64,000 bases of DNA from Oscillospiraceae bacterium (GTDB lineage Bacteria > Bacillota > Clostridia > Oscillospirales > Ruminococcaceae), in contig JAIRWC010000002.1 in the NCBI GenBank assembly GCA_031253495.1, positions 29,308 through 93,307 on the forward strand, written 5' to 3'. Below the pieces are notes generated by a model. It saw only the letters and a list, made by a program, of their open reading frames with translations, did no database searches and was not told the origin of the DNA. Numbering within the stretch: position 1 is the stretch's first letter; each line of letters begins with the position of its first letter. Shown here piece after piece: positions 13,785-46,395 of this stretch. Made by a program: the position numbers and the translations under genes.

Positions 13785-13810
13785 GGTTTCCGCCGCGACG
13801 GCGCAACCCC

Positions 13811-13848
13811 GTCCAAATTCAAAACGCGAAGCATTTTGAATTTGAACG
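13811..13848. repeat. Dyad intergenic repeat family B, copy 1
   Basis: gcaaccccGTCCAAATTCAAAACGCGAAGCATTTTGAATTTGAACgac; shared with 37243-37281 and 56143-56187. Confidence 0.6.
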
Positions 13849-13852
13849 ACTA

Positions 13853-17463: not shown

Positions 17464-17470
17464 GGGGAAA

Positions 17471-17549
17471 GGTTGAAAAATAAGAAAGAACGAATCACCA
17501 TGCCGCAATTTTCATTGGGTTTTGTGCAGGGTGAGGCGGCATGGTCATA
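17471..17549 (+). repeat. uORF/inverted-repeat element, copy 1 (~80 bp)
   Basis: ggttgaaaaataagaaagaacgaatcACCATGCCGCaattttcattgggttttgtgcagggtgagGCGGCATGGTcata; uORF 17500-17550 MPQFSLGFVQGEAAWS*. Confidence 0.9.
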
Positions 17550-17555
17550 AATATG

Positions 17556-19103
17556 AAATTAACCGAATGGGTAAGGGAACGGCGCGAGGAAAACGAGATA
17601 CTCGACGTATTTTTACAGATAACCCGGCTTTTGTCGGACGGCAAGGGGCAGGGTGCCGTTTCACCCGCTTTGTACGAGGTTGACGAGCTTAATAACGTCC
17701 TCTTTAACGGGAACGAAACCGATTTGCCGAACCCCGCCTCGGATTTCCGCGCGCCCGAAAACGGCAGGAACGGCGAAAAAAGCGACGTGTTCTCGCTGGG
17801 GATGTTACTGTATCTCCTGTTGAATAAAGAAACCTATTATCAAAGCAGGAACGTTTCGCCCGCCCTGTTGCTGAAGGCGCGCCGCAGAAGCCCGGGGTTT
17901 TCCATGATTAAATCCGAGGACGGCAGACCGGTATCCCTGCTCATGGAAAAGATGACGTCGGTCGACGCCGATGAGCGCCCTTCCCTGAAAGACATTCTCG
18001 CGGTTTTGAGCGGGTATGTCTGCCGTTTTTCGGTATTGCCGCAAAACATACAAACGGGCGAGGTTTTCGGTGAAATAACCCGCTCGTTCACAGGTTCGCA
18101 AAGTTATAAGTTCATGCCCGAAAGCCGCTACGTTATCGACGGCGTAACGCTGGCGCCCGTATCGCAAACGCCGCTCCTGATACCTTTCAGACTGGTGAGG
18201 AAGCAATACGCCTTGGAGGTCGTCTACGCGAAAGAGGGACGCTGGTCTTACGCGGTAAAAAAGCCCGACGCGCCGGAAGTTCCGCCCGCTTCGGAGGAAG
18301 CCTTTTCAATCGTTCCGAAAGCGACCGCCGCCCTGTACTATTGCGACGCCTTTTACGGCGCGCGCGACAGCACGCTTTTATGCGGGACCGACGGCTATTC
18401 GTTCGAGCTGGGTTATTCCGAGGGCGGCGGCAAAAACGTCAAAATAAGCAGGGAGGGAACCTTGGTCGCCCCCGAAAGGATAGGAACGCGCATACTTTCC
18501 ATGTTGAAGCAAACGGGAAAGGCGCCGGGCGAAATCTCACGCGTCGCCGTCTACGGTTACGGCGTGTTCCCCGCGAAAGGGGCGAACGCCGCCAAGGTTA
18601 TGCCGGCGGTAACGAAAACAATCAACGACATATTCCCGGAAGACGTCAACATCTGCAGTTTAAGCGGGGAAGATATTTTGAGGGGCGCGGCGCTTTACAT
18701 ATCGGATAACGGGATTGTCCCGGGGAAAGCGTCGGAATATGCCGAATACGATTACGGGATAACCGTAAGCGACCCCGTATCGCAAAGATACGCGTTTCAG
18801 ACGCTCATTCCGGCGGGAACGCCCGTTAAGGGGGGGGTTGAGGTCAAAACCGTCTTTCGCCCGTCCGCAAGCGATATAAGGAACGGAATATGCGCGGTCA
18901 TGCTGTTTAGGCGCGAAAAGGGGTTTGAACACGTGAACAGCACGCTTGAGCCCGACGGCGACAAAATCAAACTCGCAAAAAAGATAAAGGTTCCCCTGCC
19001 GTCTGAAATTACCTCGCCCCGCCCCGTCGAGTTAACGCTCAGAATGGACGAGACGGGCGGAATGGACGCCGAAGCGCGCGCCGCCTTTTCCGGCGAAGAG
19101 TAA
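17556..19103 (+). CDS. Hybrid protein: pseudokinase-like C-lobe fused to Hsp70-like C-terminal region
   Basis: MKLTEWVRERREEN...; FRAPENGRNGEKSDVFSLGMLLYLLL and LLMEKMTSVDADERPSLKDILAVL match kinase APE/alphaF/alphaH-I motifs; later ISRVAVYGYGVFP...ILRGAALYI...GITVSDPVSQRYAFQTLIPAGTPV resembles Hsp70 lobe II/SBD-beta. Start could also be the element's ATG at 17541 (MVINM). Confidence 0.6.
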   Translation, partial: KLTEWVRERREENEILDVFLQITRLLSDGKGQGAVSPALYEVDELNNVLFNGNETDLPNPASDFRAPENGRNGEKSDVFSLGMLLYLLLNKETYYQSRNVSPALLLKARRRSPGFSMIKSEDGRPVSLLMEKMTSVDADERPSLKDILAVLSGYVCRFSVLPQNIQTGEVFGEITRSFTGSQSYKFMPESRYVIDGVTLAPVSQTPLLIPFRLVRKQYALEVVYAKEGRWSYAVKKPDAPEVPPASEEAFSIVPKATAALYYCDAFYGARDSTLLCGTDGYSFELGYSEGGGKNVKISREGTLVAPERIGTRILSMLKQTGKAPGEISRVAVYGYGVFPAKGANAAKVMPAVTKTINDIFPEDVNICSLSGEDILRGAALYISDNGIVPGKASEYAEYDYGITVSDPVSQRYAFQTLIPAGTPVKGGVEVKTVFRPSASDIRNGICAVMLFRREKGFEHVNSTLEPDGDKIKLAKKIKVPLPSEITSPRPVELTLRMDETGGMDAEARAAFSGEE

Positions 19104-29913: not shown

Positions 29914-29935
29914 ACGCGGACGTATAAGGTATAAA

Positions 29936-30015
29936 GGTTGAAAAACAAAAAAGGACGAATCACCATGCCGCAATTTTCATTGAGTTTTGCGCAGGGTGAG
30001 GCGGCATGGTCATAA
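29936..30015 (+). repeat. uORF/inverted-repeat element, copy 2
   Basis: ggttgaaaaacaaaaaaggacgaatcACCATGCCGC...GCGGCATGGTcataa; uORF 29965-30015 MPQFSLSFAQGEAAWS*. Confidence 0.9.
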
Positions 30016-30017
30016 TT

Positions 30018-31586
30018 ATGATAAAACTTTCCCCGCTCTTTTCGGACGGAATGGTTCTCCAAAGGAACGCGGACATAAAAATCTCGGGGCTTTCCGCCCC
30101 GGGCGATATCGTCGGGATAACCTTTCGCGGCGAACGCTTCACGGCGGAAGCCGACGAAGGCGGGGCGTGGGCTTGCCGAACGGGCAAATTCCCCGAAACC
30201 GCCGAGCCTTGCGAAATGACGGTCGTTTCAAAAGAAGGCGAGGTTGTTATCCGCGACGTCCTTGTGGGCGACGTTTGGCTCTGTTCGGGTCAGTCGAACA
30301 TGGAGCTGACTTTGGATCGCGTCCGCCACAACTACCCCCGCGAGTTGACCGCGACCGACCCGCTCATCCGGCAGTTAAAAGTCCCGCAGGTTTACAATTT
30401 CGACGCGCCCGTCGCCGAACGCGGGCTGTCGGATTGCGCGTGGGAGAGTTTTAATCCGGCGACGGCGCCGGGTTTTACGGCGGCGGGCTATTTTTTCGCG
30501 AAAAATCTGCGCGGGCGTTATAAAATCCCGATTGGCCTGTTCGCCTGCGCGGTGGGCGGAACGCCTGTCGCCGCTTGGATGAGCCGCGATATGCTGGAAA
30601 GTTTGAATTTAAGCGGCGACCTTGACGAAGCGGTCGAATGTCAAAGTCCCGGATACGTCGAAAAAATCTTAAGCGACTACGATTTATACGAGCGGGATTA
30701 TCACAAACGGCTGAACGAGGCGGACGAGGGGTTAAGGCAAGGGTTTATGAACGCTAAATACGACTGTTCGGGCTGGGAAGAGGTTTCGCTTTGCGCCCCC
30801 GTCGAAAAGTCCGGCTCTTACTGGTACCGCAAAACCGTCGAAATCCCCGAAAGCCTTTCCGGGAAAGAGGCGGCAATTTTCCTCGGAACCGCCGTCGATA
30901 TGGACGAGGTATTTATAAACGGCGGAAAAATCGGCGCGACCCATTACCGTTACCCCCCGCGGGAATATAAGTTCGTATTGCCGGAGGGGAAAATGACAAT
31001 AGCGGTAAGGTTGCTTTGCTTTAACGGTTCGGGCGGCTTTACGGCGGGGAAGAATTATTTTATCGCCGCCGAAACAAAGACGATAAACGTCGGCGGCGCG
31101 TGGAAACGCCGATTGGGCGCGCCGTTCGAGCCCAAAAAACCGCAGACGTTTTTCGCGTATAAGCCGACGGGGCTGTTTAACGGCATGATTTCCCCGTTGT
31201 CGAATTACGCCGTAAAAGGCGTAATCTGGTACCAAGGCGAATCCGACGCGGGCGAACCCTCGCGTTACGGCGAAAAGCTGACGGCCGTGATAAAGGGCTG
31301 GCGCGAGTTATGGGGGATTGAAGATATGCCGTTTTTAATCACGCAACCCGCGTATTACGGTTATACCGGAAACGCGGACTGGGAAATACTCCGCGAACGG
31401 CAAAAATTATGCTTATCCCTCCCGAACACGGGTCTTGCCGCCGCGTATGATTTGGGCGAACACAACGACCTCCACCCGCAAAACAAGCGCGATATAGGCG
31501 AACGCTTAGCGCGGCTCGCCTCGCGCGTAGCCTACGGCGAAAGACTCCCGCCGAATATGTTTGAGATGTACAACCTTTTAAAATGA
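30018..31586 (+). CDS. sialate O-acetylesterase-like SGNH protein
   Basis: MIKLSPLFSDGMVLQRNADIKISG...GDVWLCSGQSNMELTL...VIWYQGESDAGEPSRY. Confidence 0.88.
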   Translation: MIKLSPLFSDGMVLQRNADIKISGLSAPGDIVGITFRGERFTAEADEGGAWACRTGKFPETAEPCEMTVVSKEGEVVIRDVLVGDVWLCSGQSNMELTLDRVRHNYPRELTATDPLIRQLKVPQVYNFDAPVAERGLSDCAWESFNPATAPGFTAAGYFFAKNLRGRYKIPIGLFACAVGGTPVAAWMSRDMLESLNLSGDLDEAVECQSPGYVEKILSDYDLYERDYHKRLNEADEGLRQGFMNAKYDCSGWEEVSLCAPVEKSGSYWYRKTVEIPESLSGKEAAIFLGTAVDMDEVFINGGKIGATHYRYPPREYKFVLPEGKMTIAVRLLCFNGSGGFTAGKNYFIAAETKTINVGGAWKRRLGAPFEPKKPQTFFAYKPTGLFNGMISPLSNYAVKGVIWYQGESDAGEPSRYGEKLTAVIKGWRELWGIEDMPFLITQPAYYGYTGNADWEILRERQKLCLSLPNTGLAAAYDLGEHNDLHPQNKRDIGERLARLASRVAYGERLPPNMFEMYNLLK

Positions 31587-37214: not shown

Positions 37215-37242
37215 AATGCCGTTTCCTGTCTGTTTTTATGGT

Positions 37243-37281
37243 CGTTTAAACTCAAAACGCCTCGCGTTTCGGATTTAAACG
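37243..37281. repeat. Dyad intergenic repeat family B, copy 2
   Basis: Reverse strand gcaaccccgtTTAAATCCGAAACGCGAGGCGTTTTGAGTTTAAacgac matches copy 1. Confidence 0.6.
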
Positions 37282-37292
37282 GGGTTGCGATT

Positions 37293-38039
37293 TTACGGCG
37301 GGTTGATTTTATTGTCGTTAACGACGTTATCGACGACCGCAAGGGCGCGCGCCCTGTTTTCCTCTTTCCCGCGGGGATTCTTCCGAACGGCGATATACAA
37401 ATCCTCGGGGCATGAGGCGAACATATTCGCCTCGGCGGCGAGCGGCGTGCCCTTCACCTTGTAAAAAAAGCCGTCGATATTCGGGTTGTCGGGATAAATC
37501 TCCCCAAGGTTGACGAAGAACGACTCAAGCGTCGTTTCACGCGTGATTTCCTCAAAGATTTCCATGTCGCCCACGAGTATGTAAGCCGTGCCGTCTTGTA
37601 TTTCGCTGATAAGTTTGACCGAGTTCCCATAATAGGCGTTGCCGTCCCGCCCTTCCTTAGTCAAATCAATGTAAAAATTTTCCGCGTGGACATATTTGTT
37701 TCCGTCAAAATCGGGAATATAAATCTCGAAGGCTTCTTCCAACGCCTGTTTTTTATAAGCGAGGGCCACCGCCGTTTCGTCCGCGGAGGCGAGCGTCAGT
37801 ATCCTTATATCCCCTTTTTCTTTGGTGAGGACGTCATAAACCAAAAAAGCGATAACGACCGTGAAAAAAAGTGCGACGACCAAATGTATTTTATAATGGT
37901 AGAAGAAATTCGCGGCGGCGGCTTTGCCGCGCGGCTTCTCGAAAACGCGTTTCTCAACGTTCGCGATTTCGCTTTCCCCTTCCCCGATTATACCTTGCTT
38001 GAGTTTTAACAGTTCCCTTTTGTCGTCGGAATAAGACAT
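37293..38039 (-). CDS. uncharacterised single-TM protein
   Basis: MSYSDDKRELLKLKQGIIGEGESEIANVEKRVF...HLVVALFFTVVIAFLVYDVL...; start adjoins element copy 3 (ATG at 38051 in the element gives MVINM). Confidence 0.6.
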   Translation of the reverse strand: MSYSDDKRELLKLKQGIIGEGESEIANVEKRVFEKPRGKAAAANFFYHYKIHLVVALFFTVVIAFLVYDVLTKEKGDIRILTLASADETAVALAYKKQALEEAFEIYIPDFDGNKYVHAENFYIDLTKEGRDGNAYYGNSVKLISEIQDGTAYILVGDMEIFEEITRETTLESFFVNLGEIYPDNPNIDGFFYKVKGTPLAAEANMFASCPEDLYIAVRKNPRGKEENRARALAVVDNVVNDNKINPP

Positions 38040-38041
38040 AT

Positions 38042-38121
38042 TTATGACCATGCCGCCTCACTCTGCACAAAACTCAATGAAAATTGCGGCATGGTGATTC
38101 GTCCTTTCTTATTTTTCAACC
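38042..38121 (-). repeat. uORF/inverted-repeat element, copy 3
   Basis: Reverse strand ggttgaaaaataagaaaggacgaatcACCATGCCGC...GCGGCATGGTcataa; uORF 38092-38042 MPQFSLSFVQSEAAWS*. Confidence 0.9.
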
Positions 38122-38123
38122 TT

Positions 38124-40090: not shown

Positions 40091-41293
40091 TTAGTTTGAG
40101 GTTTCGATTATCTCAAGCGCCTTTTTTATCTGCGGGTCGGTAATCGCCGAAATATCGCCGAGACCGTTTATGTCATAAGCGACGTCCGCGCTCATATCCA
40201 CCGCGTAATCCGGCGTCAGCCCCGCGCCCTCGTAATCGAACCCCGACGTGAGCCTTATTCGCGCGACGGTTACCCGAACCGCGCTGCCGTCCTTCAGCTG
40301 CTGCGTGCTTTGCATCGTAGCTTTCCCGGCGGTGGCGCTCCCGACCAACTGCGCGCCCAAATGGCTTTTTAACGCAGCCGCCATCAGTTCGCCCGCCCCC
40401 GCCGTCGAGCCGTCCACAAGGACAATCATGGGAACCGAAACCCTTTCGGAGGAGTCGGCGACGACAAAATCCCGCCTTATGCCGTTTTTGTATTCGGTAT
40501 AGGCGATTGTTCCCGCGCCGACCAAACCGTTGAGCATCTTTTTCAGCGGCTCGTAATAATCGCTTGAGTTTTGCCTTAAATCCACCACGAGCGCTTTCGG
40601 CTCCGCCTTGAGAACGCTTTGTATTACCGCCGCGAACTGAGCCGCCGTAAGCTCGTTAAAATCCGTTATGCGGATAAAGCCCACGCCGTTGCCCGCCGCG
40701 CCCTCGACCGAGATAATATCAAGCGACTGCCGCCTTACCTGAAAAGTGTGAACCTCCCCGCGGCGCTGCGCGGTTAAACTGAAGCGCGTGCCGTCCTCGC
40801 CCTCAAGCAGCTTAACCGCCGCGTCCGCGCCGGCTTCGAGAACGTTTGTCCCGTCTATCGAGATAATTACGTCGCCTTTCTGAACGCCCGCGCCCTCCGC
40901 CGACGAACCGGAATAAACGCCCTCGACCTTGATATATCCGCCCACCTCTTTCGCGGGGATAATGCCGCAAGTTACGATTTTTCCGCTCTCCCCGCGAACC
41001 GATTTGGCGTATTCGTCGGCGGTCATATAAACCGTGTTCTTGTCGTCCACGCCGGAAATATACCCGTTGAATATGCCGGAGGCGATTTTTTCATCATCGA
41101 CGACGCCGTAATAGTTATTGCGGACGAAAGAATCTATTTCCTGCAATTTGGCGCTTATATCGTCGCGAACCGCGACCCCCGCGAATCTGTCGTTGTACAT
41201 ATTCAGCGAAACGGTCCAGGTTATGACGAACGTAACCGCGCAGGCTATGGCAATCAGGCTGACGCATACGCCCGCCGAAATTTTTTTGTTCAT
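40091..41293 (-). CDS. S41 family C-terminal processing peptidase (PDZ domain)
   Basis: MNKKISAGVCVSLIAIACAVTFVIT...GVQKGDVIISIDGTNVLEAG...VPMIVLVDGSTAGAGELMAAALKSHLGAQLVGSATAGKATMQ. Confidence 0.92.
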   Translation of the reverse strand: MNKKISAGVCVSLIAIACAVTFVITWTVSLNMYNDRFAGVAVRDDISAKLQEIDSFVRNNYYGVVDDEKIASGIFNGYISGVDDKNTVYMTADEYAKSVRGESGKIVTCGIIPAKEVGGYIKVEGVYSGSSAEGAGVQKGDVIISIDGTNVLEAGADAAVKLLEGEDGTRFSLTAQRRGEVHTFQVRRQSLDIISVEGAAGNGVGFIRITDFNELTAAQFAAVIQSVLKAEPKALVVDLRQNSSDYYEPLKKMLNGLVGAGTIAYTEYKNGIRRDFVVADSSERVSVPMIVLVDGSTAGAGELMAAALKSHLGAQLVGSATAGKATMQSTQQLKDGSAVRVTVARIRLTSGFDYEGAGLTPDYAVDMSADVAYDINGLGDISAITDPQIKKALEIIETSN

Positions 41294-41370
41294 ATGACCA
41301 TGCCGCCTCACCCTGCACAAAACTCAATGAAAATTGCGGCATGGTGATTCGTCCTTTCTTGTTTTTCGAA
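41293..41370 (-). repeat. uORF/inverted-repeat element, copy 4
   Basis: Reverse strand gttcgaaaaacaagaaaggacgaatcACCATGCCGC...GCGGCATGGTcat; uORF from 41342 MPQFSLSFVQGEAAWS-Y..., stop replaced by TAT and open into the gene. Confidence 0.9.
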
Positions 41371-41409
41371 CTTATATATATTCTTCGTTTTCGGGCTCAC
41401 GCCGCGCCG

Positions 41410-45988: not shown

Positions 45989-46025
45989 CGACGGTCGCCG
46001 CCGGCGGCGGCGGACTTTTTGAAGG

Positions 46026-46395
46026 GCGTGACTCCTTCTGTAAGCCGGATTTTGTCGCGTATAATCATTTATCTTGCCGTATTGTCGCCAATACGGTCGT
46101 TTCACTTTAAAGTGAGGTTGCCGCCTTTTGTCGGGCGCGCCGAGCAGACGCGTTTCCCCGACGTTAAATCGGCGTTGCATCGGATAGGGTTTACACGGCG
46201 GCGACGTCTCCGTCGCCCCGGTGGGCTCTTACCCCGCCTTTCCACCCTTGCCCCGCGTTTTCCGAAAAACGCGGGGCGGTTTATTTCTGTTGCACTCGCC
46301 CTGGAGTCGCCTCCGGCTGCCGTTAGCAGTTATCCCGCTCTGCGATGCCCGGACTTTCCTCGCGTTTCCGCGCGATTATACAAAGAAGTCACGCG
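46026..46395 (-). ncRNA. rnpB: RNase P RNA (bacterial)
   Basis: Reverse strand has GAGGAAAGTCCGGGC, GGCGACTCCAGGGCGAGTGCAACAGAAA, AAGGGTGGAAAGGCGGGGTAAGAGCCCACC, GTAAACCCTATCCGATGCAA, ATAAATGATT, ACAAAATCCGGCTTACAG; P1 GCGTGACTTCTTTGT pairs with ACAGAAGGAGTCACGC. Confidence 0.95.

Follow-up and report, generated by a model that had tools for sequence, protein, structure and literature searches.

The window analysed here, a stretch of 64,000 nucleotides, contains four copies of a repeat of about 80 bp that runs from a left AAG to a right GGTCAT(AA). All four of the copies described in the initial annotation are present, each directly 5′ of a start codon and in sense orientation to the downstream gene (start codons at 17553, 30018, 38039 (-) and 41293 (-) for copies 1 to 4, respectively). 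The sites given there stand, and the spans of the element have been reset to the coordinates below; SD denotes a Shine-Dalgarno sequence, and G041 is a sister genome.

17469-17550 (+): element copy 1, from the left end AAGGTTG to the right end GGTCATAA, between an Hsp70 gene and a 517-codon ORF, followed by AT and then ATG
17497-17545 (+): hairpin of copy 1, with arms ACCATGCCGC and GCGGCATGGT
17500 (+): start, inside the hairpin, of the 16-codon frame of copy 1 (MPQFSLGFVQGEAAWS), with its TAA at 17548-17550
17553-19103 (+): host gene of copy 1, start codon at 17553, with a weak kinase-like match below the Pfam cut-off
29934-30015 (+): element copy 2, after a DUF2344 gene, with the in-element SD AAAGGA
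30018-31586 (+): host gene of copy 2, a SASA-type carbohydrate (sialate) esterase
38042-38123 (-): element copy 3, immediately following the stop codon of a gene for a class II (D,K,N) tRNA synthetase; the G041 site is empty (AAAAGGATTAgttgccATG)
37293-38039 (-): host gene of copy 3, a predicted membrane protein without a Pfam match
41294-41373 (-): element copy 4, after an ftsX-like gene; the right end is joined directly to the ATG (GGTCAT-ATGAAC), the left TTG is changed to TCG, and the uORF has no stop
40091-41293 (-): host gene of copy 4, an S41 peptidase with a PDZ domain

The arms of the inverted repeat are exact in all four copies, as had been reported. The short upstream reading frame (uORF) that starts within the hairpin was described as stopping close to the ATG of the gene, and it does so in copies 1 to 3, in which the stop lies 2 nt before the ATG; copy 4 (GGTCATATGAAC) lacks such a stop, and its frame continues out of frame into the host gene. 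What had been taken for a kinase-like/Hsp70-like hybrid at copy 1 is two genes, an Hsp70 gene upstream of the element (PF00012, E-value 9e-48) and a gene downstream of it whose match to PF00069 falls below the cutoff (23.6 vs 31.7 bits). Pfam searches agree with the identities assigned to the SASA esterase and the S41 protease, and give no match for the transmembrane host protein of copy 3.

In an Rfam search of the window at the gathering threshold the only match is RNase P—a complete bacterial class A RNA at 46025-46391 (-)—and the element matches no curated family. The window also contains other REP-like palindromic families (e.g. CGGCGCAACCCCGTTTAAATTCAAAACGCGAAGCATTTTGAATTTAAACG) at 13794-13850 and 37239-37289, which are intergenic, occur in all orientations, and have no start-codon bias.

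Copies, host genes and insertion sites

The genome to which the window belongs (G000; a 1.67 Mb assembly of 45 contigs) has 24 full copies identified by BLAST of the whole assembly, which are 85–99% identical to the query with E-values down to 1e-38, and four diverged ones were added with a covariance model made from 34 copies, giving 28 significant copies. The number of copies first given, four, is thus superseded; searched genome-wide by both methods, copies come in the dozens and at gene starts, the outcome that the initial annotation had named as support. Gene calls throughout are simple ORF calls, and all of the data derive from MAG assemblies, nearly all of the genomes being drafts.

Matches to the element were found in 10 of the 71 genomes of the genus, with at least 61 in G019, 31 in G006, 28 in G000, 11 in G101, seven in G016, and one or two in each of five others. 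The remainder of a 298-genome sample of the order contains no element match, and the exact core pattern has none in viral contigs. One carrier record, WRMK01000086.1, is the termite-gut Oscillospiraceae MAG Th196P3bin75, and the label Th196 also occurs in a study of MAGs from higher-termite guts (PMC7024585). Two matches to the left end only (L025 and L027) were left out of the copy counts: L025 is the 3′ end of a methyltransferase-like gene, and L027 sits at a contig end (G000:C45) in a different palindromic repeat of about 150 bp, with ends AGAACCTGTATTCAG and CTGAATACAGGTTCT and an 18-nt left end in common with the element.

Host genes were named from their N-termini by our own reading of the sequences. 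They include ruvA, hisC, dnaN, rpsI, rplF, pyrG, accD, xseB, hpt, an addA-like gene, and genes for a HIT protein and dCMP deaminase in G000; rplN, purD, carB, pfkA and rsmD in G006; secY, dnaA, rplK, yebC, aroK and argH in G019; and metK in G101. These genes are unrelated and often essential, so that the lack of relationship noted among the downstream genes in the window extends to functionally unrelated core genes of G000 and its relatives. Six of the 24 full G000 copies supply the stop codon of the upstream ORF—xseA ends ...RVEEKVEK* inside the element—and the left end quickly stops read-through from the upstream gene in two of the three frames. The last XseA residues are encoded by the element's left end in both G000 and G041 (L007, L059).

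The position of the element was determined for 129 copies from the genus by locating the right arm of the hairpin and seeking the next start codon. A strict script passes 114 of the 129, and the 15 failures were read by eye; nine had mis-set offsets (L031, L033, L034, L039, L040, L049, L083, L125 and L131), and in L030 a second, incomplete copy comes behind the first, the ATG being counted after the incomplete one. About 124 of the 129 have an ATG opening a long ORF 2–13 nt downstream; among the others, L188 has a GTG start, L181 probably a TTG, and L018, L048 and L142 are unclear. The same test is passed by 5.3% of random positions and 5.5% of noncoding positions, and the orientation is sense in every copy. 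Neither position nor orientation is random, as they might have been had the link to gene starts noted initially been fortuitous, and the frequency of sense copies abutting a start codon relative to these controls, together with the BLAST E-values, excludes chance.

The placement is precise. The stem-to-ATG spacing is the same in 20 of the 24 full G000 copies (GGTC(A/G)T(A/G)A-NN-ATG), with three reading GGTCAT-ATG, and the left end takes the place expected for the native start codon, immediately 3′ of the native SD. None of the 28 significant G000 copies occupies any other intergenic or an antisense position. The bias to start sites is therefore as first described, but the wording that the element was "selected at 5′ ends" probably understates it: no copy was found away from a start, whereas other palindromic repeats of G000 are dispersed through intergenic regions in every orientation.

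Start sites were compared with those of orthologues for 12 genes. In G041, the nearest relative by RplF identity (86%), the orthologues of nine G000 host genes have the same ATG after a short, mostly SD-like leader without the element, and orthologues in G041, G020, G003, G101 and others have the same ATG after a plain SD and a short spacer. The G041 rplF start without the element reads gagggggagagtATG, and at the site of window copy 3 the G041 sequence ...CCCCAAAAGGATTAgttgccATGTCTTATTCC corresponds to ...CCCCAAAAGGATTAA-(AAGGTTG...GGTCATAA)-AT-ATGTCTTATTCC in G000. These empty sites come from sister species, so that no single insertion is seen base by base. AA flanks both ends of the element, and longer flanking repeats are present only at L011 (AAGTATG) and L018 (AAAGCTG); in this comparison between species there is no clear target-site duplication.

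An SD signal of −5 kcal/mol or better with the anti-SD precedes the left end in 80% of the G000 copies, the corresponding figures being 82% in ordinary genes and 50% in a control region. In G019, whose copies are older and more diverse, the signal has faded (41% vs 39%), as would be expected if insertion had made the native SD redundant. A single, clearly decayed copy is present in G041, ahead of xseB, and the G000 xseB copy is young; the two could represent two insertions at one site, or an old shared insertion renewed by gene conversion.

Hairpin structure and related families

Pairing in the 10-bp stem is preserved in 97.5% of cells. At the start codon of the uORF, G-C takes the place of A-U in three copies (changing ATG to GTG), and four have an A-C mismatch; there are 3 compensated cells, and 5 of 500 shuffles reach the score. 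An RNA structure is suggested mainly by the near-perfect complementarity, the covariation being weak. The stem is present in the predicted RNA fold of each of the four window copies, with z-scores of -2.4, -0.2, -4.0 and -3.0.

The consensus differs from species to species: MPQFSLSF... in G000, ...CAAATTTCATTGGG... together with a variant with a 138-nt loop in G006, a different loop in G016, and a GGTATTGAAA right end in G019. Judged by these sequences, the copies are the products of separate and recent amplification in each species. Nested copies lie directly behind older ends (...ATGGTCAT followed by AAGTTTG) at L019, L048 and L096, and L116 (G019:C30:1-299), at a contig end, consists of four copies in tandem. 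Many near-identical copies at unrelated genes, amplification by species, empty sites in sisters, and nested and tandem copies all uphold the original suggestion of a mobile MITE/REP-like element.

G006 carries a second family (AAGGTTGGAATCAAATCTGCG...GCAGAAAGGACAAGGGTAA-AAAA-ATG) that has the same address and is also a landing site for the first. Members of this second family (L053/L037, L150 and L301) are about 77 nt, have the hairpin before their SD, and are also found in tandem and nested with the first family. A third family (L223 at G006 ruvA, L228 at G101 ruvA, and L050) has a short hairpin GAGGCTTTGTGCCTC, then AGAAAGGCATGGTCATAA, then the ATG, and the left end of L050 again resembles AAGTTTGAA.

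Other hairpin families in the genus have the same address and the right end of the element (ATGGTCATAA-NN-ATG), in many cases together with its left end (AAGTTTGAAA). Exact matches to the right end ATGGTCATAANNATG number 48 in G006, 26 in G101, 20 in G014, 18 in G011, 17 in G046 and 10 in G000, with 0–1 for a reversed-pattern control; some of the single matches from other genomes fall inside genes by chance. In G032, G015 and G006, ATGGTCATAANNATG closes families with different hairpins, and the left end AAGTTTGAAA stands behind SD-like or older element sequence. This arrangement suggests one machinery recognising ends that are common to unrelated interiors.

No candidate for that machinery tracks carriers versus non-carriers among the Y1 transposases, reverse transcriptases, serine recombinases and IS110 transposases. 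The Y1 transposase (PF01797) is absent from G000, G006 and G101, with one weak match in G019, and reverse transcriptase (PF00078) is absent from G000, G006 and G019. IS110 transposases are present in G006, G019, G016, G045 and G100, broken in G041, and absent from G000 and G101; a start-adjacent element beside an IS110 transposase gene in G045 (AAGTTTGAAAGCAATGCC...CAAAGGACATGGGTCATAAAAATG; L267, G045:C34) is the only hint of an IS110 link. The only resolvase match in G000 sits on a phage-like contig without element ends. Contig G000:C38 (L342) is phage-like; it encodes terminase, portal and capsid-like proteins as well as large serine recombinases in tandem. A longer (autonomous) element with the same ends is absent from 823 kb of G000, and the inverted repeat is internal; the ends AAGTTTGAAA and GGTCATAA are not complementary, and there are no clear terminal inverted repeats.

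Proposed insertion mechanism and alternative explanations

We propose, with a probability of about 70%, that this roughly 80-bp repeat is mobile but non-autonomous, that it represents one of several related families in the genus, and that it is targeted to translation start sites when it inserts. The proposal takes up the position, orientation, empty sites, copy numbers, nested copies and common ends observed above, and adds a trans-acting recombinase that we infer. The element would enter the spacer between the native SD and the ATG, 2–4 nt before the start codon and in the sense direction, with the recombinase recognising both its ends (AAGTTTGAAA ... ATGGTCATAA) and the start site. It carries a GAAAGGA SD followed, in this family, by the 10-bp hairpin, with 8–9 nt from this SD to the ATG in the left arm.

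Expression of the host gene could then be kept by either of two routes, going by the anatomy of the element and known biology. In one, the hairpin would form and loop out, leaving about 13 nt (6 + 7) between SD and gene ATG across the stem; the corresponding distance is 12 nt in sister families with the hairpin before the SD (GAAAGGA-ATGGTCATAANN-ATG) and 11 nt in a hairpin-less derivative in G020 (L035). In the other, ribosomes would start at the hairpin ATG, read the short frame, and re-initiate at the gene ATG. The stop of this frame is usually 2–7 nt before the ATG (2 nt in most G000 copies, a few nt in many of G019), and coupling is most efficient at small spacings (PMC12548453); translational coupling is thus a plausible way for host gene expression to persist. 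Insertion would be tolerated, apparently without silencing the host gene, because the element carries an SD of its own together with a hairpin or a short frame that delivers ribosomes to that gene.

A similar distribution might be produced by a mobile element of low specificity under strong purifying selection, if only copies between SD and ATG, restoring translation with their own SD, survived. The SD and open frame would make start-site insertions unusually harmless, and the G000 genome is 91% coding; but insertions at other intergenic or antisense sites should be harmless too, yet the G000 copies avoid these places, which other palindromic repeats in the same genome do occupy, and the spacing to the ATG is nearly fixed. 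We consider this explanation unlikely. It is quite improbable, in our view, that the repeat is a regulatory RNA module, a 5′ hairpin bound by a protein or small RNA that makes the scattered genes a translational regulon. The conserved stem, the sense orientation, the location over the translation start and the weak covariation would all fit, but the hosts share no function and are not the same from one species to the next, the hairpin loop varies freely in G019, the amplification is recent and species-specific, and families with different hairpins have only their ends in common.

The initial annotation also raised a conserved 16-codon uORF or leader peptide, in which case the peptide might act in cis as a sensor or stalling peptide. 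The frame is indeed open in 21 of the 24 full G000 copies, and in G019 stop codons are at about half their expected frequency (6 vs 12.6) and are rarer in the uORF frame (8/47) than in the other frames (18 and 20), so some pressure to keep the frame open may exist. The peptide itself is not conserved at the level of the sequences compared: substitutions in G019 are spread evenly over the codon positions (79/79/81), synonymous and nonsynonymous changes are near the no-selection expectation with no synonymous excess, the start is lost (GCG) in two of the 24 G000 copies and an early TAG is present in three, and the frame is shifted or fused to the gene in G016 and many G019 copies. A leader-peptide cassette is accordingly largely refuted.

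Insertion directed to start sites can be set beside several known systems. REP/REPIN sequences with RAYT (TnpA-REP) are similarly short hairpin repeats with many copies and no long target duplication, but REPs are extragenic without a start-codon address, whereas the present element lies at starts and the Y1 transposase is lacking in three of its carriers. IS200/IS605, IS607 and IS110 elements insert without long duplications and can have subterminal hairpins or a common core dinucleotide; none of these families links consistently with the carriers, and G000 has only its one phage-associated resolvase. Like a MITE, the element is short and non-coding, with 24 + 4 near-identical copies at unrelated loci, but it lacks terminal inverted repeats matching an autonomous transposon. 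The Correia elements (NEMIS) of Neisseria have terminal inverted repeats. They too are MITE-type and lie mostly immediately upstream of genes (PMC10969869). They act through promoters, whereas the element described here has an internal hairpin, no clear terminal inverted repeats or target-site duplication, a fixed ATG position and one orientation. Rickettsia palindromic elements are also short, palindromic, translation-compatible and found in unrelated genes, with a mobiliser that is likewise not known (PMC10969869), but they are located within coding frames and end up in the protein product, whereas insertion between SD and start leaves the protein start intact. Translationally coupled uORFs, such as that upstream of iraD, resemble the short frame in ending a few nt before the next start (PMC12548453); here, however, the frame is on a dispersed repeat, the peptide is not conserved, and some copies have no start or stop.

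Literature searches found no mobile element between an SD and a start codon. Mobile elements spare their hosts through safe addresses such as tRNA genes, attTn7 and terminators, and a start-codon address, if true, would be a new safe haven present at every gene. The chances are about even that these families constitute a new class of mobile DNA, in which short hairpin elements are placed between SD and start codon by a recombinase or RNA-guided machinery, every gene offers a safe site, and the families share the recognised ends. A start-codon address would also pose the question of how the point at which translation begins is recognised by an enzyme that joins DNA, and a start-site-directed recombinase, if found, would be a useful tool. 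The copies also provide a natural experiment, with one translation module standing in front of well over a hundred genes, among them those for ribosomal proteins, and empty orthologues with which to compare them.
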